Shown: positions 4,575 through 24,026 of the stretch, piece by piece
Position numbering within the stretch: the stretch's first letter is position 1
Layout of the letters: every line of letters begins with the position of its first letter
Source of the DNA: Thiotrichaceae bacterium
GTDB lineage: Bacteria; Pseudomonadota; Gammaproteobacteria; Beggiatoales; Beggiatoaceae
Direction: 5' to 3'
Length of the DNA stretch: 32,998 nt
Assembly (NCBI GenBank): GCA_016745055.1
Contig: JADGDF010000034.1
Coordinates: 1 to 32,998 of the forward strand
Notes under the pieces: generated by a model
Told to the model about the DNA's origin: nothing
The model's database searches: none
Seen by the model: the letters and a program-made list of their open reading frames with translations, nothing else
Position numbers and translations under genes: made by a program

Positions 4575-4665
4575 CATCCCATTCATTACGTAAACGACTT
4601 AATGCAGTATTCATTTCTTCACTTGAATAAGTACCCTCAGGTAATGTTTCTATATGGGCAATCAC
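4567..4665 (-). pseudogene. C-terminal remnant of an antitoxin gene
   Basis: A 32-codon frame opens at GTG (4663-4665), reads IAHIETLPEGTYSSEEMNTA then LSRLRNEWDDE, and stops at 4567. The E-T-L-P and L-x-R-L-R-x-EWDDE pattern is the tail of small VapB-type antitoxins. It overlaps the start of the decayed VapC. Its upstream side runs straight into the stop codon of the 832-aa gene (GTGA overlap), so the N-terminal part appears to have been lost. Confidence 0.5.
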
Positions 4666-7160
4666 TGTACGTCAATAAAGAGATTAATAGGTTCTGAATT
4701 ATAAACAATCACACCGTCTTCCAAGCGATAGCCAAAGTAAATGTTGAGTTTGCCTACAATATTTAGTGATGGAGGGGGAATTTCCACTTCTTGAAATTGT
4801 TTTAGAGTAACACCTTGTTCAAATGCTTCAAGATTACTCATCTCACCATCCCACTCAAGCATTTGCTTCTCTGTATCTAACATGTAGAATTGCGATTGTT
4901 TTACAGCATGTATCACCACTAGAATGTCGGCTACCTTATCAATATCATTGATATCTATTGTCATATGACCAAGAATGTCAATGGGTACAAATAGGTTTGG
5001 TTTAGCGCTAGACTGATATGAACTACCGTTAAGTGAGATACCCCCACTAAATGCAGTACTGGAATCAGCTAGTTTTCCTGAAGGATTAACCGCAATAGCT
5101 GATTCTAAACTAGGTAGCGTTTTGGGAAATACAACATTGATCAGTTCAACATTGCCACCCAATTGCACATCCTGGCCAATAACAGAATTTTCAAGAATCA
5201 CATTTTCCAGATGACTGCCAGATTTAATGGTGACAAACTCCAAGTAAGCTCTATTTTCAGCTTTACCCACAATTTTTCCCCTCAAAATGCCACCAGTGAT
5301 ATGGGCGCCAGCATCTAAATGTACATCTTGGAAGTAACCACCAACATCACTATCATTAATAACTCTACCACCTAAAGTACCTCCAGTAAGTGACCACCCA
5401 ACGAATATAAAGTCTTTGAGTATTCCTTCGTTTTCAATGTCACCGCTTAAAATGCCACCTACTAGCTTGGCTGAGAAGAGAAAGAGTGAGTTGTAAATCC
5501 AACCATGATTTTCAATGTTTCCATCAAAAGCAGCATTAGCCACATGTCCTGTTTCACCAATTGTAACGTTGGTTAGTGTTTGTTTTTCTTTAAAACGACA
5601 GGTGCCGTGAATTTCATTGTTTTCTATCAAGCATTCCTGTGGAACAATTGGAATATCATTGTTACCAGAGTTTTCCCCCAGATTATCAGGTTCACTTCTT
5701 GGTGGTTTTGGATTAGAAATTGGTTCCACTGGAGGTGGTTCCTTTGGAGGAGCAGGAATAACAATTGTTGGAGCAGATGTTGATGGTGTACTAGGTACCT
5801 CAATAACAATTGGCTTCGTTCCATCTTGAGTATTTCCTCCATTATTAGGGCTAGAGGGAGGAGTATCTCCTTGCGTTGGTGTACTTGATGGAGGATTACC
5901 ATCATTCTTTTCCGGCTCATCCCCAGGAGGGATTTCTTGTTTTTCTTTATCTTCACTATTGATAGTGACTGTCGTGGTACCTAAACTTTCATTGCTTTCA
6001 GAATTTGCCAGAGAAATAGTAAATCGTTCGTCTTTTTCTACTTCATTATCATTAATCAACTTGACACTGATTGTTTTGGAACTATCGTCACCATCTTCCC
6101 AAATTAACTCACCACTTGTTGCTACAAAATATTGTCCAGCTAAAGCAGTACCATCATACATGGTATATTTCACTGAAATTCGCCCATAACTACCACCAAC
6201 ACGTTTTACATTAACAGAGTAATCACCAACATTATTTTCGGCAACACGATATTCAGAGGCAGAAAATTGGATAGTCCCTGGATTCTTTTCCGCTTGATCC
6301 TCGTTTTTATCTTCGCTGTTAATTGTAATGATTGCTACATCTAAAACTGACACACCAACTATATCTGTTAATGTAACAGTAAGTTTTTCTGGTTCTTCTA
6401 TTTTTTCATCATTGATTAAATTAAAATTTATTGTACGGTCACTGCTATCACCATCAAGCCAAGTAAAACGACCTGTTATTGGCGCTTCAAAGTCCTCTCC
6501 AGCGGTAGCTGTACCGGGGGTTATACCGTACTTGACCATTACCAAACCATCATTGCCATTAATTCGTTGAACTTTTAAAGAGTAAGCACCATCGGTTTCA
6601 TTAACAATATGTGGTGCTTGGGCAAATTGAATTTTTCCTGGCTGTCTTATTTTTTGGTCATCATTCTCTCCTGAGGATGAAGATAACACTTCAAAAGCAT
6701 TATCAAGATTTCCACTCATATGGTTTTCTACAAAAACACTTGAATTTCCTAACTCAGCATCCTCGGCGATTTGTATTTCTGCGGTAATTTTTGTTACATC
6801 CGTTGCTGCGGGAAGATGATTAAGAATCTGAATACCTTCTCTAAACTTTAGTTTCATGTCCTGCTGAAAATTTTCTCCAGTCACAATGACAATGACTGTG
6901 TCGCCTTGCTTTCCTTGATTGGGTTCAACCGATATAATTTTTATATCTAATGGAGCAGCAATGGCATCAAAACTACTGCCAAGTGCAGCATCAAATTTAT
7001 TTCTTTTTGTTTCTTCTGAATCATTTTGGCTAATCACTGTGCAAGTTGCATTGACATGACTACCTAAACTGCACCAAAAATTACTCACTTCATTTGCCTT
7101 AACTAGAATAGGCAAACACATCAAAAAAATAATCTGAATAAAACGTTTAGAAACTAACAT
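4662..7160 (-). CDS. exported IPT / Calx-beta protein with proline-rich linker
   Basis: An 832-residue exported protein and the third gene of the surface operon. A signal peptide spans about residues 1-22 (RFIQIIFLMCLPILVKA). An IPT/TIG-like domain follows at about 72-160 (ISVEPNQGKQGDTVIVIVTG). Two Calx-beta domains sit at about 174-283 and 295-403, each with the GTATAGEDF or GTALAGQYF motif, a W-x-DGD-S turn and an ENDEKIEEPE-like strand. A Pro/Ser/Thr linker lies at about 408-505. A stretch at about 510-680 is rich in GG-I-L-x-G-x-I-x-N turns and probably forms a repetitive beta solenoid. A 150-residue tail follows. Calx-beta and IPT domains are extracellular adhesion or Ca-binding modules. 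No anchor is visible, so secreted or outer-surface placement is inferred. An AAGAGA ribosome site precedes the ATG. Confidence 0.8.
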   Translation of the reverse strand: MLVSKRFIQIIFLMCLPILVKANEVSNFWCSLGSHVNATCTVISQNDSEETKRNKFDAALGSSFDAIAAPLDIKIISVEPNQGKQGDTVIVIVTGENFQQDMKLKFREGIQILNHLPAATDVTKITAEIQIAEDAELGNSSVFVENHMSGNLDNAFEVLSSSSGENDDQKIRQPGKIQFAQAPHIVNETDGAYSLKVQRINGNDGLVMVKYGITPGTATAGEDFEAPITGRFTWLDGDSSDRTINFNLINDEKIEEPEKLTVTLTDIVGVSVLDVAIITINSEDKNEDQAEKNPGTIQFSASEYRVAENNVGDYSVNVKRVGGSYGRISVKYTMYDGTALAGQYFVATSGELIWEDGDDSSKTISVKLINDNEVEKDERFTISLANSESNESLGTTTVTINSEDKEKQEIPPGDEPEKNDGNPPSSTPTQGDTPPSSPNNGGNTQDGTKPIVIEVPSTPSTSAPTIVIPAPPKEPPPVEPISNPKPPRSEPDNLGENSGNNDIPIVPQECLIENNEIHGTCRFKEKQTLTNVTIGETGHVANAAFDGNIENHGWIYNSLFLFSAKLVGGILSGDIENEGILKDFIFVGWSLTGGTLGGRVINDSDVGGYFQDVHLDAGAHITGGILRGKIVGKAENRAYLEFVTIKSGSHLENVILENSVIGQDVQLGGNVELINVVFPKTLPSLESAIAVNPSGKLADSSTAFSGGISLNGSSYQSSAKPNLFVPIDILGHMTIDINDIDKVADILVVIHAVKQSQFYMLDTEKQMLEWDGEMSNLEAFEQGVTLKQFQEVEIPPPSLNIVGKLNIYFGYRLEDGVIVYNSEPINLFIDVQ

Positions 7161-7186
7161 TGTGATTTCTCTTGTCGAATGAAAGG

Positions 7187-7244
7187 CATTGCCAGAGTTA
7201 AGATGTTTGTTTGTTGGGAAAACGACTTTCTTAATCTGGCAATG
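7187..7244 (-). promoter_or_regulatory. long stem-loop upstream of the 832-aa gene
   Basis: CATTGCCAGA at 7187-7196 pairs perfectly with TCTGGCAATG at 7235-7244. Inside it, TTAAGA pairs with TCTTAA after a one-base bulge, giving about 16 paired positions. It lies 26 bases before the start codon in the mRNA, with no T-run after it. It may be an RNA-stability, processing or translation-control element of the operon message rather than a terminator. Confidence 0.55.
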
Positions 7245-7268
7245 TAAACAAGATTATTTAATATTACA

Positions 7269-7294
7269 ATGGGTAGGGAATATATCCTACCCAT
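7269..7294. terminator. stem-loop after the 1624-aa gene
   Basis: ATGGGTAGG and CCTACCCAT form a perfect 9-bp stem around an 8-base loop, 25 bases past the stop at 7320. On the minus strand the stem is followed by TGTAATATT, not a run of T. It could be a weak terminator or an mRNA 3'-end protector inside the operon. Confidence 0.45.
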
Positions 7295-7319
7295 TTTCCT
7301 ACTCATTCAAACTTACACG

Positions 7320-10300
7320 CTACTCAATGAAGTTTGAACTTCCTTCACCGCAGTCCATCTCACTGATAATCGGCCTAAAATCGACTTCTTTTTCAGACAA
7401 TATTGCTTTGATTTTTTCAACAGTGACTAGGGTTTCTGCATCATCATACACGGGTGCGTCTGTGATAAAGATCAGCGTACCTTGAGATTTCAAATGATTG
7501 AGTCCCAACACTAATGCATCTGCAGAAGCTTCAGGGCACATCCCACCATCTTTTGCTTCCAAACCGTTTAGAGCTTGCAATAAGATTTCAAGGTCACGAG
7601 TCGCAGTTACCACTTTAATATCATCGTCATCTCTAAAGCTCACGATAGCGATAAGTGGTTTAGTGCCATTAGCAAAACCTTCTTCGGCGTATTGCTTGAC
7701 TTGTCGGATAACTCCTTCCAACTCGTCATTCATACTCCAAGTCAAGTCAATAACAATAATACCATCAACCACAATGTTTTGAGTGTTTACTTCAGCGCGT
7801 ACTCTGGAAGTATGTCCTTCTGAATATTCCACTGACGTTACCTTGGCTTTGGCAACAAGTTTGATGAGACCTGGGTCTGTCAACTTCGTATCCAAACTGA
7901 TTGTGGTGTAACTGACATCACCTGGGTTAACAATACTCAAATCTTGAATATCGCAAATAATTGCAGTTGATGTATCCCCAACACGACAGCCACTAGACAT
8001 GGATGAAATATCTAAGCCTTTAGGTAATTGAACTTCCAATTGAATACCCGTTACATTGGTTTGAGGTGCATTATCATTCAACTCAACATCAAACTCATAA
8101 TGTAAATCACCACCCATCACGACAGGACTTGGGGTTGCACTACCAAAGACAGACAAGTAAGGTTTCACCTTTGTTGCTGTTTTTGCAACATCTGGGGTGT
8201 ACTCATTAGATGTCAAAGTAACTACGTTAGCAATCGAAGAACCTGCTTGGCCGACGCTCAACTCAACATCAATGGCGGTAAGTGAACCAACAGACAAATC
8301 AGATAAAGTACAAGTCGTTGTATTGTTTTCAACCACACCATCACAGTTAACACCTTCCAACCCTTGAATGCTGACCAAACTTGTACCGTTTGGAATTTCA
8401 TAGGTAATGAGGCCATTGGTTGCTGTTTTATCTCCGCCGTTGACAGCGCTGATGGTATAGGCAATGTTTTTACCTTGTTCAGCTTTTTGTTGGCGATCTT
8501 TAGGAGAAATTTTGGCTTTCAACTCAGTCAGTGGTTTTAACACAATTTCAGTCAACAACTGTTCATTGCCCACTTCAAAATCCACAGGCATGAAGGTTGT
8601 GCCATCGTCACTACTTACCATTGCAGTGTAAGCACCTTCAAGCAAGCTACCAATTTTCCAGCCTCCGTTTTCATCAGTGGTGATAGTTTTGCCATCGACT
8701 TCAATGGTTACACCCACAACCGGCTCACCTACTTCATTATGAATGGTGCCAAACACGCTGTAATCACCGGTGACATTTACTGAGCCTGTTAACGTGATAT
8801 TTGAAGTTTCATCTTCACCTAACTCCACTTGCTCACTTTCAAAGGTATAACCTTCTTTGCTAGCAGAGATTGTGTAACTTCCTACAGGCAAGTCAATTGT
8901 CACTTCACCATTAACATCCGTCGTTACAGTTTGATTCCCTACTTGGACACTCACACCTTCTAAAGGTTGGCCATCACCAGTAACGGTTACATTAAGGGTG
9001 CCTTGTGGTATTGGAAGAGTATTTCCTCCTAGTCTAACTTCCACTTCCTTAACCACTTCAATACCACTAAGCTCGACTTTGGGTTGCTCAAATTCATGGA
9101 CTTTATGGCTAGCAGCGATAGTATAAGTACCTGCTTCAAGACCATAAACATACCAGAATCCATTGGCATCCGTTTTTGCTAACTTATCTCCAACTGTGAG
9201 TTGAACACCTTCAATGGGTTGACCATTTTCATCCACAATGGTGCCCAACACAGCATAAAGATTAGCTCTTTCTAATTCTCCAAGTAAATTTGGTTGAGTC
9301 GGAGCTATTTCAGCAAAAATTTCAAGGCCTTGACGTAAAGCAGCAACTTCTTCTGTATCAATAGATACATTACGCATACCCATTGTTGCAGATTCATCAA
9401 TTTGGATCGTTGTTATCAACTGAGATAATCCTTGAACTGCGGTAGAAAGTACAGAAACTCCCATGCTTTCTAAATCTACAAGGATATTTTCCATTTCCGA
9501 GAAATCAACATATTGCCCAATCATTTCAATATCCAATGTTTGATCTTGGAAGGCATAACTTGGATTAATTTGAGTGATTTTAGGTATATCTTTCGCGATT
9601 TCGAAACCATTCAAAAGTGCAGCTGTTTCATCGCCGGTTGTGATAAATACATCGCGATAGCCAAACTCTGCATCGTCAGCAATTCCAATCGTTGCAACTG
9701 CATTTGTCGCATCAATCACGTTAAGTGTCAGGATCTTAATACCGCTTCCACTGAATTCTAAGAAACTTTCTTCGTCAACAAAATGAGTTGTTTGTCCGGA
9801 AAGTTTAATATTAACGGTAGAATCAACGCCAGCACGTGATGGTGTGATTTCAGTAATTTTGGCAACAGAACTGTTGTTGACAACTGAAGATAAGACTAAA
9901 AAGCTATTTGCTTTTGCAACACGTTCGTTACCAGTTTCCACAACCACACTGTGTAAGCCTACTTTAGTAGAAGTAGTCACATCCACAGTTGCTGTCATCA
10001 ACTCAGAACTATGAACAGTTAAGTTTTGAACTGTAATGCCATTACCAAAATTGACGGTGGTGGTTTCGTCAAAGTTTGTCGCTAACCCAGAAATATTGAC
10101 GTTAGTACCTGTACCCACAATGCCAATGTAAGGTGTAACACCCACAAGTTCTGGATTGCCCGTAGCTTCTGCTACGAATAAAGGCCCTGCACCTTCAGCC
10201 ACTTCAACGTCATTACCTACTGTGGTTGTAACTGTCACATCATAAAAATCAGACGTGATATTGGCAGGAACAGTAACATTGGCGATAATTTGTGTGGCAG

Positions 10301-12194
10301 ATAGTACTTTGAAATTATTGACTGTAATACTATTACCAAAATTAACGGTTGAAGACTCATTAAAATTAGTACTCGCAGCTGTCAATACTAAATCTGAAGT
10401 TGCTCCTTGTAGTACAGTGGAAGGATTCACATCAACAATAGCAGGCTCATCAGTTCCCATCATGGTGTTGTAAATACTATTTTCGTATCGTGTACCACTA
10501 ATATCTGTGCCATCATTGACTTCAGGAATATATGCAAATGAACCGTTTGTTTCAAAAGCAATGCGAGAATAAACTTCGATAGCACCATCATCCGTTCTAC
10601 CATCACGAGTCATCCGATTACCACCTCGGACTCTTGGTGAACCACTGCGCGTATCTTCACACTCGCCAGTCAATTTGACATGAACACGGATTCCTTTCTT
10701 TTTCAAGTCAGCAATCAATCCATCAATATCCAAATCAGGATGAGGATCAGCGTCGGTATACAACATGATTTGTCCACCTTGTCGGGTGTTCAATGAAGCG
10801 GCTTGTATTGCTTCAACAGAGCCTTCGGGACATTCACCGCCACCTGCTGCATAAAGGCCATCAATACGTTTTTGTACTGCAGCTAAGTCATTTGTAATGC
10901 CACGTTCGTAAAAGCCATCTCTAAATTCAACAAAATTGATAGCAGGGGCACTTTTGCGTTTGCCACTTTCCAATCGCTTAACAATGTTTTGCGTATATCG
11001 AGTTAAACTATTAGCTGTACGAACAATTTCTCCTTTTTCTGATACACCATCGTCATCAAACCCCATACTGCCAGTCACATCAATCACATAAGAAGTATCT
11101 GCACCGTCATTGTCTTTAATGATGATTCGATGCGTCTTTTGTTTACCTCGCGTGGCACCACCTTCTAAAGTTGCACCCAACAGAGCAAATTGCACATGTT
11201 CCGACGATGGATATTCCATGCGAGTATCGTCAATAATTTGAACAGTAATGGTGCGTGGACTATCATCCCAATCTTCCCAAACTGGGTTTAAAGAGGAAGT
11301 AATTTTGTAGTCTTCATTCAATTTTGCGGTTGTTCTGGTATCAGAAACAGCTATTTCTATTGAAACTCGGCCATTTTTTCCACCTACACGAACAACATCA
11401 AAAGTGACAGTACCCACATCCTCATTCACGCTTTGGGAAGCTGCAGAAAATTGAATTTTGCCTGGTTGGGGGGAGCGGAATTTTGCAACAGTTTCAGCGG
11501 TCTTGTTAAGAATATTGGCACAAACCTTTGACCAGTTATTAGTTTGAAAACCAAAACTATCATTCATAATGACATTATTGCCATTGATTGTTTTATCATT
11601 GTTTTTGCATCCCATCAAATGCCCAAGCTGATGAGAGAAGCTATAACCTCCAAGATCACTCCCTGCCGCACAACCGACAGTGACAACAGCAAATGCAGAC
11701 TCAGCAAATCCATTTGGTTTATTAGGATTTAACTGATGTGCGTTACCACACCCCCCTGCATCATTGCCAACTAACAGGACGGTGACATCTGCCATGTTTT
11801 TACCGCGTAAATCATGGACATTAGGTATTTGATTTGTCGTCAGTTGTACTAAGATATCTTCTGTGGAGAGTTTATCTTTATCGCCTTCATAAGCTATCTG
11901 GGCACGATGTACTTCGTTCAATTGCTGTGTAACACTACTATTGGTGTAACTGGTGTTGGTTTCTTTGATGAGATCATTAATCATGGAATTAATGTCACCA
12001 CCTGATGCACTTTTTGCGTGTAATTCCGCTTGAGGCGTATATACTACAAGCAAGTCGATGACTTCATCAGCAGCGAAGCTGGTCAATGGCGTTACACTTA
12101 ATGAAAATAAAACAAGTAAACTGCTTACCCATCTAGCAAAATGACTTTGCCTTTTGGGAATAGCAGGATCATGTTTTCTCGAATAGGGAATCAT
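7320..12194 (-). CDS. giant exported multidomain protein: reprolysin-like, Calx-beta, vWA, IPT, CNA-B, DUF11, vWA
   Basis: A 1624-residue exported protein. Signal peptide to about 42 (VTPLTSFAA). A reprolysin/M12-like domain spans about 44-240 (IDLLVVYTPQAELHA; GGYSFSHQLGHLMGC). The canonical HExxHxxGxxH is HQLGHLMGCKN here: the catalytic Glu is Gln189 and the third His is Asn198, so peptidase activity is unlikely. Then come Calx-beta (about 244-362) and vWA-1 (about 366-580, MIDAS D372-T374-S376). Four IPT/TIG-like repeats run about 583-960, three carboxypeptidase-regulatory/CNA-B-like domains about 978-1220, and two DUF11-like domains about 1224-1455. vWA-2 occupies about 1478-1624 (D1483, T1485, S1487) and ends earlier than vWA-1. 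Both vWA domains share a GGxCPE ... C pair, suggesting a disulfide. The architecture suggests a metal-dependent adhesin or matrix protein; its ligand is unknown. It is the middle gene of the operon. Confidence 0.85.
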   Translation of the reverse strand: MIPYSRKHDPAIPKRQSHFARWVSSLLVLFSLSVTPLTSFAADEVIDLLVVYTPQAELHAKSASGGDINSMINDLIKETNTSYTNSSVTQQLNEVHRAQIAYEGDKDKLSTEDILVQLTTNQIPNVHDLRGKNMADVTVLLVGNDAGGCGNAHQLNPNKPNGFAESAFAVVTVGCAAGSDLGGYSFSHQLGHLMGCKNNDKTINGNNVIMNDSFGFQTNNWSKVCANILNKTAETVAKFRSPQPGKIQFSAASQSVNEDVGTVTFDVVRVGGKNGRVSIEIAVSDTRTTAKLNEDYKITSSLNPVWEDWDDSPRTITVQIIDDTRMEYPSSEHVQFALLGATLEGGATRGKQKTHRIIIKDNDGADTSYVIDVTGSMGFDDDGVSEKGEIVRTANSLTRYTQNIVKRLESGKRKSAPAINFVEFRDGFYERGITNDLAAVQKRIDGLYAAGGGECPEGSVEAIQAASLNTRQGGQIMLYTDADPHPDLDIDGLIADLKKKGIRVHVKLTGECEDTRSGSPRVRGGNRMTRDGRTDDGAIEVYSRIAFETNGSFAYIPEVNDGTDISGTRYENSIYNTMMGTDEPAIVDVNPSTVLQGATSDLVLTAASTNFNESSTVNFGNSITVNNFKVLSATQIIANVTVPANITSDFYDVTVTTTVGNDVEVAEGAGPLFVAEATGNPELVGVTPYIGIVGTGTNVNISGLATNFDETTTVNFGNGITVQNLTVHSSELMTATVDVTTSTKVGLHSVVVETGNERVAKANSFLVLSSVVNNSSVAKITEITPSRAGVDSTVNIKLSGQTTHFVDEESFLEFSGSGIKILTLNVIDATNAVATIGIADDAEFGYRDVFITTGDETAALLNGFEIAKDIPKITQINPSYAFQDQTLDIEMIGQYVDFSEMENILVDLESMGVSVLSTAVQGLSQLITTIQIDESATMGMRNVSIDTEEVAALRQGLEIFAEIAPTQPNLLGELERANLYAVLGTIVDENGQPIEGVQLTVGDKLAKTDANGFWYVYGLEAGTYTIAASHKVHEFEQPKVELSGIEVVKEVEVRLGGNTLPIPQGTLNVTVTGDGQPLEGVSVQVGNQTVTTDVNGEVTIDLPVGSYTISASKEGYTFESEQVELGEDETSNITLTGSVNVTGDYSVFGTIHNEVGEPVVGVTIEVDGKTITTDENGGWKIGSLLEGAYTAMVSSDDGTTFMPVDFEVGNEQLLTEIVLKPLTELKAKISPKDRQQKAEQGKNIAYTISAVNGGDKTATNGLITYEIPNGTSLVSIQGLEGVNCDGVVENNTTTCTLSDLSVGSLTAIDVELSVGQAGSSIANVVTLTSNEYTPDVAKTATKVKPYLSVFGSATPSPVVMGGDLHYEFDVELNDNAPQTNVTGIQLEVQLPKGLDISSMSSGCRVGDTSTAIICDIQDLSIVNPGDVSYTTISLDTKLTDPGLIKLVAKAKVTSVEYSEGHTSRVRAEVNTQNIVVDGIIVIDLTWSMNDELEGVIRQVKQYAEEGFANGTKPLIAIVSFRDDDDIKVVTATRDLEILLQALNGLEAKDGGMCPEASADALVLGLNHLKSQGTLIFITDAPVYDDAETLVTVEKIKAILSEKEVDFRPIISEMDCGEGSSNFIE

Positions 12195-14566: not shown

Positions 14567-16810
14567 ATGTCAATAACACCCCTTGAATTACTCCGTCAAA
14601 CCTTTGGTTATCAAGACTTTCGTGGCGAGCAAGCACAAATTATCCAACATGTACTTGAAGGAAAAAATGCGCTTGTGCTCATGCCCACAGGTGGCGGAAA
14701 ATCGCTTTGTTATCAAATACCTGCTCTTATCCGGCCTGGTTTAGGTATCGTTGTTTCACCTTTGATTGCATTAATGCAGGACCAGGTGACAGCTTTGCAG
14801 CAACTAGGTATTCGTGCAGCTTCCCTCAATTCCCAACAAAATTATGATCAGGCTTATCAAGTTTCAACTCAACTGCGTCATGGTGAATTGGATTTACTCT
14901 ACGTTTCTCCCGAAAAAATAGTGACACCACGTTTTTTAGATTTTTTGGAACAAACTGAAATTGCTTTATTTGCGGTTGACGAGGCACATTGTTTGTCTCA
15001 ATGGGGACATGATTTTCGCCCTGAATATGCCCAACTTTCTGTTTTAGCTGAACAGTTTCCTGGTATTCCGCGTATTGCGCTGACTGCAACGGCAGATCAT
15101 ATTACGCGCCAGGAAATTATTGAACAATTGCAATTACATGATGCTAAACCATTTGTTACAGGCTTTAATCGACCAAATATATACTATCGTATTGTGCATG
15201 GGCAAAAGAATACAAGGTTGAATGAGGTTTTATTAAATTTTATTCGCCAAGAACATTCAGGCGATACGGGCATCGTTTATTGCCTAACTCGTAAAAAAGT
15301 AGAGGAAACAGCAACTTGGCTGACGCGAGAAGGACTAGTTGCTTTACCTTATCATGCTGGTTTGGATAAAAATATACGCGAACATCATCAAACCCGCTTT
15401 TTAAGAGAAGAAAATATTATTATTGTTGCTACGATTGCTTTTGGATTAGGTATTGATAAACCTGATGTGCGTTTTGTGGCTCATTTAGGGTTACCCAAAA
15501 GTATAGAAGCCTATTATCAGGAAACAGGGCGGGCTGGACGTGATGGACTCCCAGCCAATGCTTGGTTGGGCTATAGTAACTATGATATTGTAATGCTGCG
15601 ACGTATTTTGGAAGGTTCAGCGTGCGAAAATCCGCAGGTTAGAAAAATAGAGCTTGCCAAATTGCAGGATATGATTAGATATTGTGAATGGACTCGTTGC
15701 CGTCGTCAAAAGTTGCTCACTTATTTAGGCGAACCAACGCATCAACCTTGTGGGTATTGCGACAACTGTGGTGGATTGATTGAAACTTGGGATGCTACTG
15801 AAATTGTGCAAAAAGCACTTTCCTGTGTTTATCGAACTGGAGAACAATTTGGTATTGGTCACGTCACTGAGGTACTTTTGGGAAAAAAGAGTGATAAAGT
15901 TTTGCAACATACCCATCATGAAATTAGCACATTTAGTATTGGTCAAGAATTAACGGCAGGTGAATGGCATTCACTGTTCCAGCAGTTATTGGCTATTGGT
16001 TATATTAAAACTGAAAATGAAGACTATAGGCTGCAAATTATATGGGAAAAAGCGCGGCCTTTATTGCGCAGTGAAAAACGGCTGCGTTTACGCAAAAATG
16101 GCGTTTCAGTCTCACAACTTCCTAAAAAAACAGTTAATTTCAGTGATACTGATAAAATTTTATTAAATAATTTACGCCAGAAACGTAGAGAGCTAGCGCA
16201 AGCTGATAATAAAGCACCTTATATGGTATTTCATGATACAACCTTGGAAGAAATGGTCAGGTATCGCCCCAGCAATTTAGCTACTTTTTACAAATTAAAG
16301 GGGGTGGGAAAATCTAAAAAACATTATGCTCAGACTTTTATTGGCGTGATGGACGAACATGCGATGAAATATCATGATGATACAGGTTTGGAAGATGAAT
16401 TATTAGCGCTATCAGCACCAACAGTAAAACCAAAAAAAACAGCTACAACTAAAATTTTGCCACACACAAAATCAGAATTATCACCTACAGCTATTCAAAG
16501 TATTGAATTATGCCAAACAGGCTTATCTCCTGAACAAGTTGCAACGCAACGTGGTTTAAAAACAACGACTATCTATGGACATTTAGTGGATGGCATTCAC
16601 TGCGGCGAATTAACATTAAACACTGTCATTACCTTAGATAATAATGAAATTAATGACATTAAAGAGGCTATTCAAGCACTCACTGAAGGCAATAATGCAT
16701 TAAAACCTGTGTACGAAGCCTTTGAAGGTGTTTACGAATACGATACTTTAAGGTGTGTTAAGGCTCATGTATTAAAAGAAAATAGGGAACCTGATGTTCC
16801 TAATAATTAA
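14567..16810 (+). CDS. recQ: ATP-dependent DNA helicase RecQ
   Basis: A 747-residue 3'-5' superfamily 2 DNA helicase acting in recombination and fork repair. Walker A is TGGGKS (41-46) and the DEAH box is at 138-141. Motif [12 protein letters not shown], is at about 318-327. The zinc-binding Cys are C378, C395, C398 and C401, spaced as in E. coli RecQ. A winged-helix domain and an HRDC domain (about 530-610, including [12 protein letters not shown]) follow. The extra C-terminus (about 635-735) carries a helix-turn-helix-like block ([20 protein letters not shown]) found in longer RecQ proteins, making it some 140 residues longer than the E. coli enzyme. The next gene starts 15 bases on, so the two are probably co-transcribed. 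Confidence 0.96.
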
Positions 16811-16825: not shown

Positions 16826-17182
16826 ATGTCACAAAATACTTTGGAAACTTTGCGTCAACAATTAAGTGAGTTTGCTAGCGTACGTAATTGGGAGCAGTTT
16901 CATTCGCCAAAAAATCTTTCAATGGCACTAAGCGCTGAAGTTGCAGAACTCATTGAACATTTTCAGTGGCTCACTGAAAAACAAAGCAGTGATTTGTCCC
17001 CTGATAAATTGGAAGAGGTAGGTTACGAATTGGCAGATATATTAATTTATTTAGTACGTATTGCAGATAAATTGGATGTTGATCTTTTGGAAGTTGCTTA
17101 TAAAAAAATGGCAATTAATGAAAAGCGATATCCAGTAGAAAAAGTCAAAGGAGATGCTCGTCGAGCTTCAGAATATGAATAA
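16826..17182 (+). CDS. MazG-like nucleotide pyrophosphohydrolase
   Basis: A 118-residue all-alpha NTP pyrophosphatase of the MazG/RS21-C6 (dCTPase-like) type, which hydrolyses (d)NTPs to monophosphates plus pyrophosphate and cleans the nucleotide pool. Diagnostic motifs are LSAEVAELIEHFQW (first Mg-binding helix with E-x-x-E), KLEEVGYELADILIYLVRIA (E-x-x-x-x-E-x-A-D helix) and the tail NEKRYPVEKVKGDARRASEY. Full length for the family. It lies 15 bases after recQ with a strong AGAGGAAAGAG ribosome site, which fits a small genome-maintenance operon. Exact substrate cannot be assigned. Confidence 0.9.
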   Translation: MSQNTLETLRQQLSEFASVRNWEQFHSPKNLSMALSAEVAELIEHFQWLTEKQSSDLSPDKLEEVGYELADILIYLVRIADKLDVDLLEVAYKKMAINEKRYPVEKVKGDARRASEYE

Positions 17183-17585: not shown

Positions 17586-17627
17586 AAAAAAAGAATTTCC
17601 TGTTAAACTCACAGGAAAGGCTTTTTG
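17586..17627 (+). terminator. terminator/attenuator-like stem-loop
   Basis: TTTCCTGT (17596-17603) and ACAGGAAA (17611-17618) form a perfect 8-bp stem. It is flanked by a run of A on the left and CTTTTTG on the right, the layout of an intrinsic (possibly two-way) terminator. It sits about 95 bases before the Met-rich gene. It either ends transcription from upstream or acts as an attenuator in that gene's leader. Confidence 0.5.
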
Positions 17628-17658
17628 TCCAAAGATATTATTAAAAGTTTAGGACAAA
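17622..17658 (+). promoter_or_regulatory. inverted repeat overlapping the terminator T-run
   Basis: TTTGTCC (17624-17630) is the exact reverse complement of GGACAAA (17652-17658). It shares its left arm with the T-run of the preceding stem-loop, so the two could form mutually exclusive structures. It lies 64 bases before the Met-rich gene. Confidence 0.35.
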
Positions 17659-17722
17659 GAGTTAAGTTTATTTTTCCATAAAATTACAAACACATTATAT
17701 TAAACTGTAGGAGTATTGCATA

Positions 17723-18184
17723 ATGAAAATCAGAACCTCTCTTGCTTTAGCTTTAAGCGCTGTCTTTGGTTTAGCTGTTGCTGCTGGTCCTGTTATGGCT
17801 GGTATGGACGGTGGCATGGAAGGCATGAGCGGCATGGACAACATGGCTGGTGGCATGGAAGGCATGAGCGGCATGGACAACATGGACGGTGGCATGGAAG
17901 GCATGAGCGGCATGGACAACATGGACGGTGGCATGGAAGGCATGAGCGGCATGGACAACATGGACGGCGGCATGGAAGGCATGAGCGGCATGGACAACAT
18001 GGACGGCGGCATGGAAGGCATGAGCGGTATGGACAACATGGACGGTGGCATGGAAGGCATGAGCGGCATGGATAAAATGGATGGCGGCATGGAAGGCATG
18101 AGTGGTATGGACAACATGGACGGCGGCATGGAAGGCATGAGCGGCATGGATAAAATGGATGGCGGCATGGATAGCATGAAATAA
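17723..18184 (+). CDS. exported methionine-rich 13-residue-repeat protein
   Basis: A 153-residue precursor. The signal peptide is clear (MKIRTSLALALSAVFGLAVA, cleavage near VMA|GM at 26). The mature 127 residues are almost only nine tandem copies of GGMEGMSGMD(N/K)M(D/A), closed by GGMDSMK. By my count 39 of the 127 mature residues are Met, regularly every third position within a unit, with acidic residues between. No Cys, His or aromatic residue occurs in the repeats. M-x-x-M ladders bind Cu(I)/Ag(I) in known periplasmic copper proteins, so copper sequestration is one hypothesis. An oxidisable methionine buffer is another. TAGGAG precedes the ATG by 9 bases. It stands alone with no copper genes adjacent. 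I do not recognise a named family. Confidence 0.85.
   Translation: MKIRTSLALALSAVFGLAVAAGPVMAGMDGGMEGMSGMDNMAGGMEGMSGMDNMDGGMEGMSGMDNMDGGMEGMSGMDNMDGGMEGMSGMDNMDGGMEGMSGMDNMDGGMEGMSGMDKMDGGMEGMSGMDNMDGGMEGMSGMDKMDGGMDSMK
17810..18160 (+). repeat. nine tandem 39-bp coding repeats
   Basis: Nine head-to-tail 39-bp units, each starting GG(T/C)GGCATGGAAGGCATGAG and encoding 13 residues. Units differ mainly at synonymous positions (GGT/GGC, GGC/GGT). Units 7 and 9 replace the AAC codon with AAA (Asn to Lys). High identity points to recent expansion or homogenisation, and copy number probably varies between strains. Confidence 0.95.
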
Positions 18185-18582
18185 TATTTCAGCTAATCTT
18201 TCGCCTTAAAAACTTCTAGCAGTGAAAAATTTTACTGCTAGAGGTAAACAGATTTAAATCTTTCTAAAATTTTATTTCAAATCAAATTTCTATCACTTAA
18301 TGTATCCAATCATTCTTGTAAAATATCCTTTGTCCTTTCTTTAGTTTCTATTAACAATCAGCACGATTCTCGTCATAAGGTTTAGCACAGAGTGGTTTTT
18401 ATTCTGCTAGAAGTTTTTCATTTTGTATGTATACTCAACATGCACCAATTTGATTTAGCAGGCATAAAAAACATTTTGCAAAATAAATCTTGCTTTCATT
18501 CAAACACTGACTTGTCTTAAATATTCTCCTTCTAAACCAATTAATTCAAAAATGGCTAAAATTTCAAGGAAAAACAATAAAA
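18185..18582. other. intergenic region between the Met-rich gene and thyX
   Basis: About 400 AT-rich bases. Apart from the stem-loop at 18215-18242, I see no gene, repeat or RNA. The thyX promoter should lie here. Confidence 0.5.
18215..18242 (+). terminator. stem-loop 3' of the Met-rich gene
   Basis: TCTAGCAGT and ACTGCTAGA form a perfect 9-bp stem. The centre GAAAAATTTT is itself nearly self-complementary, so the palindrome spans almost all 28 bases. It starts 31 bases past the stop. There is no strong T-run, so termination strength is uncertain. Confidence 0.55.
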
Positions 18583-19266
18583 ATGGATAAACAATTACCA
18601 ATTCACATTGATTTATTAGATAAAGGGTTTATTGAATTACAAGATATAATGGGAGATGATAACGCCATTGTGGCGGCTGCCCGTGTTTCATTTCTTGGAG
18701 AAAGCAAAGGTGATATTCAAGATAGAAAATTAATTGATTATTTACTGCGTAATCGTCATACCTCCCCGTTTGAGCAAGTTGTTTTTAAATTTAGAGTCAA
18801 ATGTCCACTTTTTGTTGCAAGGCAATGGATGCGTCATAGGACTTGGCATCTGAACGAAATTTCAAGAAGATATACTTCAGAAGCTTTGGATTTTCACTTT
18901 CCTGATGATTGGCGTTTACAATCTTCAAATAATAAACAATGTAGTGAAGGTAGTGCTGAAAGTGTAATTCAACAACAATTTAATCAACAAACTCAGAGCA
19001 TTGTAGACACTGCATTACAAACCTATGAACAGATGGTGGAAGCTGGAATTGCGCGTGAACAGGCAAGGATGATTTTACCTCAAAATATGTATACCACATT
19101 TATTGGCAGTGTTGATTTACATAATTTACTCCACTTTTTAGCACTGAGGCGAGAACATCATGCTCAGCACGAAATTCGAGTATATGCCGATGCTATTTAT
19201 GAAAATTTTGTAAAACCTTTCTTACCCTGGACGGCTGAAGCGGCAGAAAAATACCTATTTAGTTAA
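18583..19266 (+). CDS. thyX: FAD-dependent thymidylate synthase ThyX
   Basis: A 227-residue flavin-dependent thymidylate synthase, converting dUMP to dTMP with methylene-THF, NADPH and FAD. The signature RHRx7S is present (R84-H85-R86 ... S94 in RHRTWHLNEISRRYT). The C-terminal block (ARMILPQNMYTTFIGSVDLH, then LLHFLALRREHHAQHEIR) is typical for substrate and FAD binding. Length is in the usual range. AAGGA precedes the ATG by 11 bases. It is a single-gene unit; no thyA is in this window. Confidence 0.95.
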   Translation: MDKQLPIHIDLLDKGFIELQDIMGDDNAIVAAARVSFLGESKGDIQDRKLIDYLLRNRHTSPFEQVVFKFRVKCPLFVARQWMRHRTWHLNEISRRYTSEALDFHFPDDWRLQSSNNKQCSEGSAESVIQQQFNQQTQSIVDTALQTYEQMVEAGIAREQARMILPQNMYTTFIGSVDLHNLLHFLALRREHHAQHEIRVYADAIYENFVKPFLPWTAEAAEKYLFS

Positions 19267-23434: not shown

Positions 23435-23737
23435 ATGATAACCAAATCATTTGCAATGAAATTAATCCAAGAACAATATGTCTATCTTTCAAATGAGTTT
23501 GGCGTTGAAAAAATAGGCATTTTTGGCTCTGTCGCAAAACAAATTGAGACAAAACATAGCAACATAGATATAGTTGTTACATTTAGAAAACCAATAGGTT
23601 TTAAATTTATAGAACTTGTGGAATATTTAGAGCAACTTTTAGGTACAAAAGTAGATGTGTTAACGCAAGAAGGCATTAAAAATATTAGAATTCAGGAAAT
23701 ATCTGACGATATAAAAAACAATATTATTTATGTCTAA
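23435..23737 (+). CDS. mntA: MNT-type nucleotidyltransferase antitoxin, first Asp replaced
   Basis: A 100-residue minimal nucleotidyltransferase. In MNT/HEPN modules this protein AMPylates and silences the HEPN RNase. The motif GSx10DxD is present as G31-S32 ... N43-I44-D45 (IFGSVAKQIE ... SNIDIVV), so the first metal-binding Asp is Asn. The rest of the fold (KVDVLTQEGIK) is normal. I chose ATG 23435; a TTG at 23405 in frame would add 10 residues. The end overlaps the HEPN start by 8 bases, the standard coupling. Catalysis may be lost, leaving only binding; relatives would need checking. Confidence 0.85.
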   Translation: MITKSFAMKLIQEQYVYLSNEFGVEKIGIFGSVAKQIETKHSNIDIVVTFRKPIGFKFIELVEYLEQLLGTKVDVLTQEGIKNIRIQEISDDIKNNIIYV

Positions 23738-24026
23738 GCGAAAAGATATTGATTTTATCCAAGATATTAAAGAAAGTATCGAAAGGATTATTTCCTATAC
23801 TTGTAATGTGGAGTATGAAAGCTTTATCTTAGATAACAAAATACAAAATACAAAATACAAAATACAAAATACAGTGATCAGAAATATTGAAATCATAGGA
23901 GAAGCCACAAAGGCTCTATCTGAAGAAATGAAAATGAATAATTCTGATATACTCTGGAAAAATATTGCTGGAACAAGAGATAAACTGATACATGATTATT
24001 TTGGTGTAAATATTGATATTATATGA
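23730..24026 (+). CDS. hepT: HEPN (HepT/DUF86) RNase toxin, C-terminally truncated
   Basis: A 98-residue HEPN-domain protein with the RNase motif Rx4HxY intact (R83 ... H88-D-Y90 in RDKLIHDYFG). It is helical throughout, as expected. The frame stops at TGA after FGVNIDII, where relatives continue with W-x-x-V and a final helix. The lost part is still readable: NVVKIDLLGLE in the same frame, then KINGILQNIKNENS one frame over to TAA at 24104-24106. A TGG to TGA change plus a 1-base indel would explain this. Residues 36-48 include a 7-residue duplication from a 7-bp DNA repeat. It overlaps the MNT gene by 8 bases. It may be inactive or weakened. Confidence 0.8.
   Translation: MSKRKDIDFIQDIKESIERIISYTCNVEYESFILDNKIQNTKYKIQNTVIRNIEIIGEATKALSEEMKMNNSDILWKNIAGTRDKLIHDYFGVNIDII
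23836..23873 (+). repeat. 7-bp tandem repeat (ACAAAAT, five full copies)
   Basis: Five exact copies of ACAAAAT plus ACA, inside the HEPN gene, encoding the peptide KIQNTKYKIQNT. Relatives have a single KIQNT-like segment before VIRN, so three extra units (21 bp) explain the in-frame 7-residue insertion. A 7-bp unit changes frame when one copy is gained or lost. Confidence 0.9.

Follow-up and report, generated by a model that had tools for sequence, protein, structure and literature searches.

The methionine-ladder gene

The DNA analysed here, a stretch of 32,998 nucleotides referred to as the window, carries an open reading frame on the plus strand (17723..18184) that encodes 153 amino acids followed by a stop codon and is preceded by a ribosome-binding site (AGGAG, 17709..17713, plus strand) located 9 nt 5′ of the ATG. 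The translation begins with a 26-residue signal peptide (MKIRTSLALALSAVFGLAVAAGPVMA, 17723..17800, plus strand), for which the peptide and the cleavage site, predicted after VMA, were judged by eye, and of which residues 6-20 form a helix in the AF2 model. The reading frame described in the initial annotation was thus borne out at exactly these coordinates. The mature part of 127 residues is composed of 39 Met, 39 Gly, 19 Asp, 10 Ser, 9 Glu, 7 Asn, 3 Lys and 1 Ala; Cys, His and Pro do not occur. This agrees with the earlier count of 39 Met in 127 residues and with the lack of Cys and His reported there. With 28 acidic residues, the mature protein has a computed pI of 4.05 and a charge of approximately -25.

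Nine tandem units of 39 bp or 13 residues, GGMEGMSGMD(N/K)M(D/A), make up the array (17810..18160, plus strand), which TRF resolved into a 39-bp unit with 9.6 copies and 92% match. The units had been described as perfect repeats; their number holds, but only six are identical (GGMEGMSGMDNMD), one ends with A, and in two K replaces N, each of these three carrying one change. The claim that Met occupies every third residue likewise needs refinement. Gaps of three residues account for 28 of the 38 Met-Met distances, far beyond chance (expected mean 5.7, maximum 14, in 2000 permutations), but the real spacing is a repeated 3,3,3,4, so that the ladder breaks at each DGG. Compared to the consensus unit, the codon differences are 11 silent and 3 replacing, although random single-base changes in that unit would be silent in only 14.5% of cases. 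Moreover, 14 of the 15 base differences among units fall on third positions, and Met is retained at 36 of 36 unit positions. Since the units differ mostly silently, the array is, as judged from its codons, under selection as a coding protein and goes beyond a mere minisatellite. An antisense ORF of 160 aa (17695-18177) was rejected as a by-product of the repeat. AF2 modelled the signal helix alone (mean pLDDT 51), and the mature chain is probably disordered, the low model confidence fitting disorder but being no proof of it.

Genomic setting and flanking elements

Named from their translations, the neighbouring genes are recQ (14567-16810), a MazG-like gene (16826-17182), thyX (18583-19266), lepA and lepB. 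Copper, msr and molybdoenzyme genes were not found nearby, nor an MNIO maturase gene among the ORFs of the window. Because intergenic sequences of 540 bp and 398 bp lie before and after the window gene, respectively, it is probably transcribed alone, giving a single-gene transcript. Upstream, a putative terminator-like hairpin for both strands (TTTCCTGT-N7-ACAGGAAA) is located at 17596..17618 (plus strand), the underlying search having found 2 sites versus 0.7 expected in shuffles. The inverted repeat TTTGTCC-N21-GGACAAA (17624..17658), 65-99 bp 5′ of the ATG, was considered as an operator or regulon motif and rejected, as its sole two other genomic copies sit within genes. A sigma-54 promoter was sought 5′ of the window gene without success. 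Downstream, a hairpin with 16-nt arms, 88% complementary and without a T-run, is situated 28 nt 3′ of the stop codon (18212..18245, plus strand) and possibly represents the 3′ end of the single-gene mRNA.

Two further features of the window were noted. On the minus strand, the region 4662-12194 encodes two large proteins of 832 and 1624 aa, both exported, in which repeats resembling Calx-beta and VWA were recognised by eye. At 23836-23873 on the plus strand, a perfect 7-bp tandem repeat (ACAAAAT, 5.4 copies) lies at or inside ORF 23730-24026; this tract is possibly phase-variable.

Related ladders in the same genome and beyond

The window protein had no match in Pfam, NCBIfam or PDB, and its earlier description as unlike any composition that could be named was fair. 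A plasmid search with the protein returned no match either, and tblastn of the genome contigs yielded no confirmed relatives, since the low-complexity sequence probably defeats this program. Relatives were sought by DNA patterns of spaced ATG codons. As such patterns also catch repeats in other frames as well as the tails of GroEL, Ffh and CCT/thermosome proteins, the matches were read as proteins.

In the source genome (G000, 4.65 Mb), for which the count of ladders rests on pattern and protein searches, further Met-ladder proteins were found on contigs C21, C95 and C4. The one on contig C21 comprises approximately 400 aa with GMYGMRGMGGM units. The paralogue on contig C95 combines MDGMSGMDSMAG units with an Ala-rich coil and is identical to the window protein at 20 of 39 positions over the signal peptide and first unit. 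At this locus (L203, 8804-10525, minus strand), exported Ala-rich coil proteins are encoded in tandem; one begins with the Met ladder and the other with an HvfA-like leader (PFELSNLSSGYMVA, by eye), with no Cys. Contig C4 (L204, 9492-10948, plus strand) encodes an HvfA-type RiPP precursor with KCGEGKCG repeats and Met-rich spacers (GMDGMSSMDGKGMEGK), followed by an HvfB-family MNIO maturase; the alignment of this precursor with the window protein is weak (32%). No clear orthologue of the window gene was found outside its own genome, the nearest being located on contig C4 of genome G023.

Within the family Beggiatoaceae, true exported ladders were present in 15 of 43 genomes once off-frame DNA matches had been removed via their translations. 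One locus (G023:C59, L212, 14128-15102, minus strand) encodes an exported fusion of a Met ladder with an FKBP-type peptidyl-prolyl isomerase. Beyond the family, ladders recur in other Proteobacteria, mostly sulfur oxidisers. Among the matches listed by a pattern scan of species genomes, exported proteins of the (GMSGMGGM)n type belong to Thiodiazotropha, Sedimenticola, Thiothrix caldifontis, Hyphomicrobium, a Lamellibrachia symbiont, a Chromatiaceae MAG, Rhodobacterales and others, many of the non-family ladders bearing inserts such as YFRITPQGQIYFYP or WVCTQWTR. Ladders across many families conserve Met while their remaining residues drift. A collagen-like nature of the cluster ladders was rejected, as the model matches are below cut-off and reflect Gly at every third residue.

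By its signal peptide and its long M-x-x-M array with Gly between the Met residues, the window protein can be assigned on sequence to this class of exported Met ladders. Nevertheless, its unit is an acidic 13-residue one, whereas the cluster ladders described below are built of neutral GMSGMGG units. As the window gene is in addition unlinked to such a cluster, we infer a shared function from the common architecture, and a role for the window gene would follow from its class.

A conserved cluster of ladder and molybdoenzyme genes

Many ladder genes were found in a recurring arrangement consisting of the Met ladder, a cytochrome c with five CXXCH motifs, a Tat-exported molybdopterin oxidoreductase of approximately 850 aa, a four-cluster ferredoxin (DmsB-like) and a TorD-like chaperone. 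In many copies the cluster also includes an exported partner of approximately 100 aa and a divergent or adjacent pair of histidine kinase and sigma-54 response regulator. The source genome carries such a cluster, with a ladder of its own, on contig C21 (L201, 13415-20000), where ladder, cytochrome, enzyme, ferredoxin and chaperone follow in this order; the window gene lies outside it. Further ladder clusters are located at loci L206, L207, L208, L209, L210, L214, L219, L117, L074, L042 and L292. The order is conserved in Beggiatoaceae, Thiothrix caldifontis, Thiodiazotropha, Hyphomicrobium, a Rhodobacter plasmid and a Chromatiaceae MAG, for which the ladder, the partner and the two-component part were read. 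The initial annotation had suggested testing whether homologues adjoin copA/cusA or msr genes. Neither copper nor msr genes were found in the ladder clusters read; the neighbour is a DmsA-like S-oxide reductase instead.

The small partner, exemplified at L206 (8921-9244, minus strand) by 'VAG..P..RPA.AP.I...WY..ALTGV..PYPASL.FLD.QGNWYTPFTRPGMTGPYDIRGWH', shows 23 invariant positions in an alignment of 12 sequences, has no match in Pfam or NCBIfam and gave a poor AF2 model (pLDDT 59.5). In Rhodobacter xanthinilyticus, the full ladder cluster is located on the conjugative plasmid pEJ01 (L292, 6215-17197, NZ_CP017782.1), where all of it carries generic annotation only. Its presence on a conjugative plasmid indicates that the cluster is probably horizontally mobile. 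A literature search that covered few subscription papers found nothing on GMSGM ladders or Met-rich sulfur globule proteins, nor on sulfur symbionts having Met-rich proteins together with molybdopterin enzymes; within the literature searched, the system of ladder and DmsA-like clade appears to be undescribed.

The cluster enzyme forms a distinct clade

Profile searches with the cluster enzyme yielded 592.1 bits for TIGR02166, 406 for bisC_fam and 227 for PhsA, the first value being under the curated DmsA cut-off of 777.7 bits, and the best PDB match was the DMSO reductase of R. sphaeroides (1eu1, E 1e-79). By these scores, the enzyme appears nearest to the DmsA/YnfE and BisC-type S/N-oxide reductases. 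Residues aligned with Ser147 and Tyr114 of 1eu1, which we take to be the Mo ligand and the active-site Tyr, respectively, are invariant in 40 of 40 clade sequences, and a Tat motif is present in every one with an intact N-terminus. The N-terminal Fe-S site reads C-x3-C-x3-H instead of the C-x3-C-x3-C of DmsA, with His in 39 of 39 sequences at what is presumably the position of the third cluster Cys of DmsA. The clade is sharply bounded, with 65-77% identity within it and approximately 34% to E. coli DmsA. It has SYAG, and thus Gly for Trp, where DorA has SYGW, a motif described as necessary to reduce sulfoxides (PMC7402097).

The source genome contains two genes of the clade, on contigs C21 and C194. 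In addition, it encodes MsrP, the canonical periplasmic methionine sulfoxide (MetO) reductase, on contig C231, unlinked to the window gene; MsrP was found in 17 of the 43 family genomes, the source genome included.

Co-occurrence of ladders and the enzyme clade

Within the family, the clade was detected in 14 of 15 ladder genomes compared to 3 of the 28 others (Fisher p 1e-7, phylogeny ignored). The same association was obtained for 369 sampled genomes of the class: at least five GxM-ladder matches were present in 16 of 16 clade genomes, representing 11 families, versus 3 of 353 non-clade genomes (p 2e-25, phylogeny ignored). One of these three is 55% complete and another (G077) encodes an exported GGM ladder; lone GxM matches in other genomes of the class were mostly GroEL tails. 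Exceptions are three clade genomes without an 8-Met ladder, one of them 52% complete, and the ladders of G006, G077 and G313, which occur without the clade. A Met-rich ladder ORF was located inside the 1.5-kb flanks of 24 out of 37 clade genes, several of these flanks ending at contig ends, and in G044 the ladder lies on the contig of the clade gene, 1.7 kb upstream. SoxB was found in 12 of 16 clade genomes and in 144 of 353 others (p 0.009, phylogeny ignored), which ties the genomes with ladders and the DmsA-like clade modestly to sulfur oxidation. The SoxB search gave no match in the source genome.

A possible rechargeable methionine buffer in the periplasm

Our reading of the window protein, which we consider about equally probable to be right or wrong, is that of an exported Met/MetO buffer against oxidants that is recharged by periplasmic molybdoenzymes. 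The gene product would be an exported, probably disordered, acidic polythioether whose 39 Met are separated by Gly, Ser, Asp and Glu. In the periplasm, these residues might react with peroxide, hypohalous acids, peroxynitrite or reactive sulfur and oxygen products encountered at oxic-sulfidic interfaces, and would be converted to MetO, thereby sparing other proteins of the envelope. Periplasmic molybdoenzymes fed by the respiratory chain would then reduce the MetO back to Met. For most ladders this would be performed by the DmsAB-like enzyme of the same cluster together with the five-haem cytochrome c, and for the unlinked window protein it might occur in trans by the two DmsA-clade enzymes of the genome or by MsrP. 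Gly-Met-x with approximately three residues per turn could adopt an extended chain resembling polyproline/polyglycine II, in which the thioethers would line one exposed face accessible to both oxidant and enzyme. The initial annotation had offered an oxidisable Met shield as an alternative. For the ladder class this idea gained ground from the clusters, from the co-occurrence with a DMSO-reductase-type enzyme and from the presence of MsrP in the genome, but the window gene itself is unlinked to such enzymes.

Several published findings bear on this reading. DorA, which belongs to the superfamily of the clade, reduces both free and protein-bound MetO (PMC7402097), and the hypochlorite-induced DmsABC of H. 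influenzae reduces MetSO (PMC11024254). Brucella co-transcribes the MsrPQ genes with that of an exported Met-rich protein, which the authors proposed to serve as a sacrificial sink and as the substrate of MsrPQ (PMC8315932). Against the reading count the score of the cluster enzyme below the DmsA cut-off, its SYAG in place of SYGW, the exceptions to the co-occurrence and the remark of a review that action of DmsA itself on protein-bound MetO is still to be demonstrated (PMC8076862). For ladders that are nearly pure thioether and associated with an S-oxide reductase to which a multihaem cytochrome delivers electrons, a rechargeable Met/MetO buffer is the simplest account. A wider proposal, somewhat more likely to fail than to hold, sees in the ladders the dedicated polymeric substrates of a new clade of DMSO-reductase-type protein-MetO reductases. 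Sulfur-oxidising Proteobacteria would then possess in their periplasm a thioether redox buffer that can be recharged, or a stored electron acceptor, and the window protein would be an acidic member acting in trans.

Binding of Cu(I) or Ag(I), the lead idea of the initial annotation, gained no support. M-x-x-M spacing, known as a way of arranging Cu(I) ligands, is found in the window protein, which might act as a periplasmic sponge with M-x-x-M pairs binding soft metal ions and acidic residues maintaining solubility. The same genome, moreover, contains the HvfA-type metallophore precursor with its Met-rich spacer beside an MNIO maturase, weakly alignable to the window protein, and the C95 paralogue adjoins the protein with the HvfA-like leader. 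We nevertheless regard a copper sponge as unlikely, given that neither copA, cusA nor any other copper gene lies next to the window gene or in the ladder clusters read, that the protein has no Cys or His and that the constant partner is a DmsA-type enzyme rather than a copper exporter or oxidase. That partner is also left unexplained by a structural role, for instance as part of the periplasmic sulfur-globule envelope with Met thioethers facing elemental sulfur. Beggiatoaceae do keep sulfur in periplasmic invaginations within an envelope of exported repetitive proteins (PMC7356093), ladder genes are found in Thiothrix, Thiodiazotropha, the tubeworm symbiont, Sedimenticola and Chromatiaceae, SoxB is enriched among clade genomes, and the Gly-x-y pattern of cluster ladders is matched, below cut-off, by collagen-like adhesin models. 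However, the known Beggiatoa envelope protein is patterned by proline (PMC7356093), SgpA-D of A. vinosum are described by regularly spaced prolines and not by Met (PMC10386293), no SoxB match was obtained in the source genome and ladders are missing from many sulfur oxidisers, so that a matrix protein appears rather improbable.

Improbable to much the same degree is that the DmsA-like cluster reduces another S- or N-oxide or an oxyanion, with the ladder scavenging reactive by-products of the enzyme instead of being its substrate. This would fit the position of the clade nearest to reductases of the DMSO/selenate family, and PMC8315932 cites MrpX of Azospira as a precedent for hypochlorite scavenging, but the oxidised ladder would still need MetO reduction, for which the cluster holds no other reductase, and by-product scavenging alone leaves the unlinked window gene unexplained. 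A minisatellite free of selection, lying in an exported protein of little importance, or a store of sulfur amino acids, might account for a gene whose nearest relative outside its own genome is no clear orthologue. This appears very improbable in view of the ratio of silent to replacing differences, the full retention of Met in the units and the conservation of Met in the ladders of many families.

If the buffer reading is true, periplasmic Met would be a bulk, enzymatically recharged redox material in many sulfur oxidisers, including symbionts of bivalves and tubeworms, and a physiological substrate would be at hand for a DMSO-reductase-like clade. The unnamed ladder cluster sits in databases as 'hypothetical protein' and 'molybdopterin-dependent oxidoreductase'.

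Comparison with known systems

DorA, DmsABC, MtsZ and BisA, S-oxide reductases of MetO repair, share their molybdoenzyme superfamily with the cluster enzyme, which differs from them by the C-x3-C-x3-H motif, SYAG, the five-haem cytochrome c and the ladder gene. HvfA/bufferin copper RiPPs resemble the window protein in being small, exported and repetitive, and one with a similar Met-rich spacer is encoded in the same genome. HvfA, however, needs the Cys residues of KCGEGKCG and an MNIO maturase, and the window protein has no Cys, no neighbouring maturase gene and no NCBIfam match. The copper-gene neighbourhood expected of Met-rich copper proteins (SilE/PcoE/CueO type) was seen neither at the window gene nor in the ladder clusters read. 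Sulfur globule proteins (SgpA-D and the 15-kDa protein of Beggiatoa) are likewise exported, repetitive and found in sulfur-storing bacteria, but carry proline patterns (PMC7356093, PMC10386293), whereas the exported mature part of the window protein is devoid of Pro.

The closest parallel is provided by MrpX of Azospira suillum and BcrX of Brucella with MsrPQ (YedYZ). As described in PMC8315932, these are exported Met-rich repeat proteins without a domain that, like the ladders, are genetically tied to a periplasmic molybdoenzyme, in their case a MetO-reducing one, and they were proposed to act as sacrificial hypochlorite sinks. They differ in their M-x-K-D-x pentads, their linkage to MsrP, an enzyme of the sulfite-oxidase type, and their control by an ECF sigma factor, compared to (G-M-x)n repeats associated mostly with a DMSO-reductase-type enzyme and a sigma-54 two-component system. 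MXKDX-type models of NCBIfam did not match the window protein (unit GGMEGMSGMDNMD) at E<=10, nor in a second search at E<=1, and neither msrP nor msrQ is among its neighbours. Judged from its sequence and surroundings, the window protein is thus neither an HvfA nor a recognised Sgp and has neither the repeat nor the linkage of MrpX/BcrX. By analogy, the best reading is that the ladders work like MrpX/BcrX with MsrPQ without being homologous to them and with a mostly different class of enzyme; if true, they would represent a solution independent of, and parallel to, MrpX-MsrPQ.
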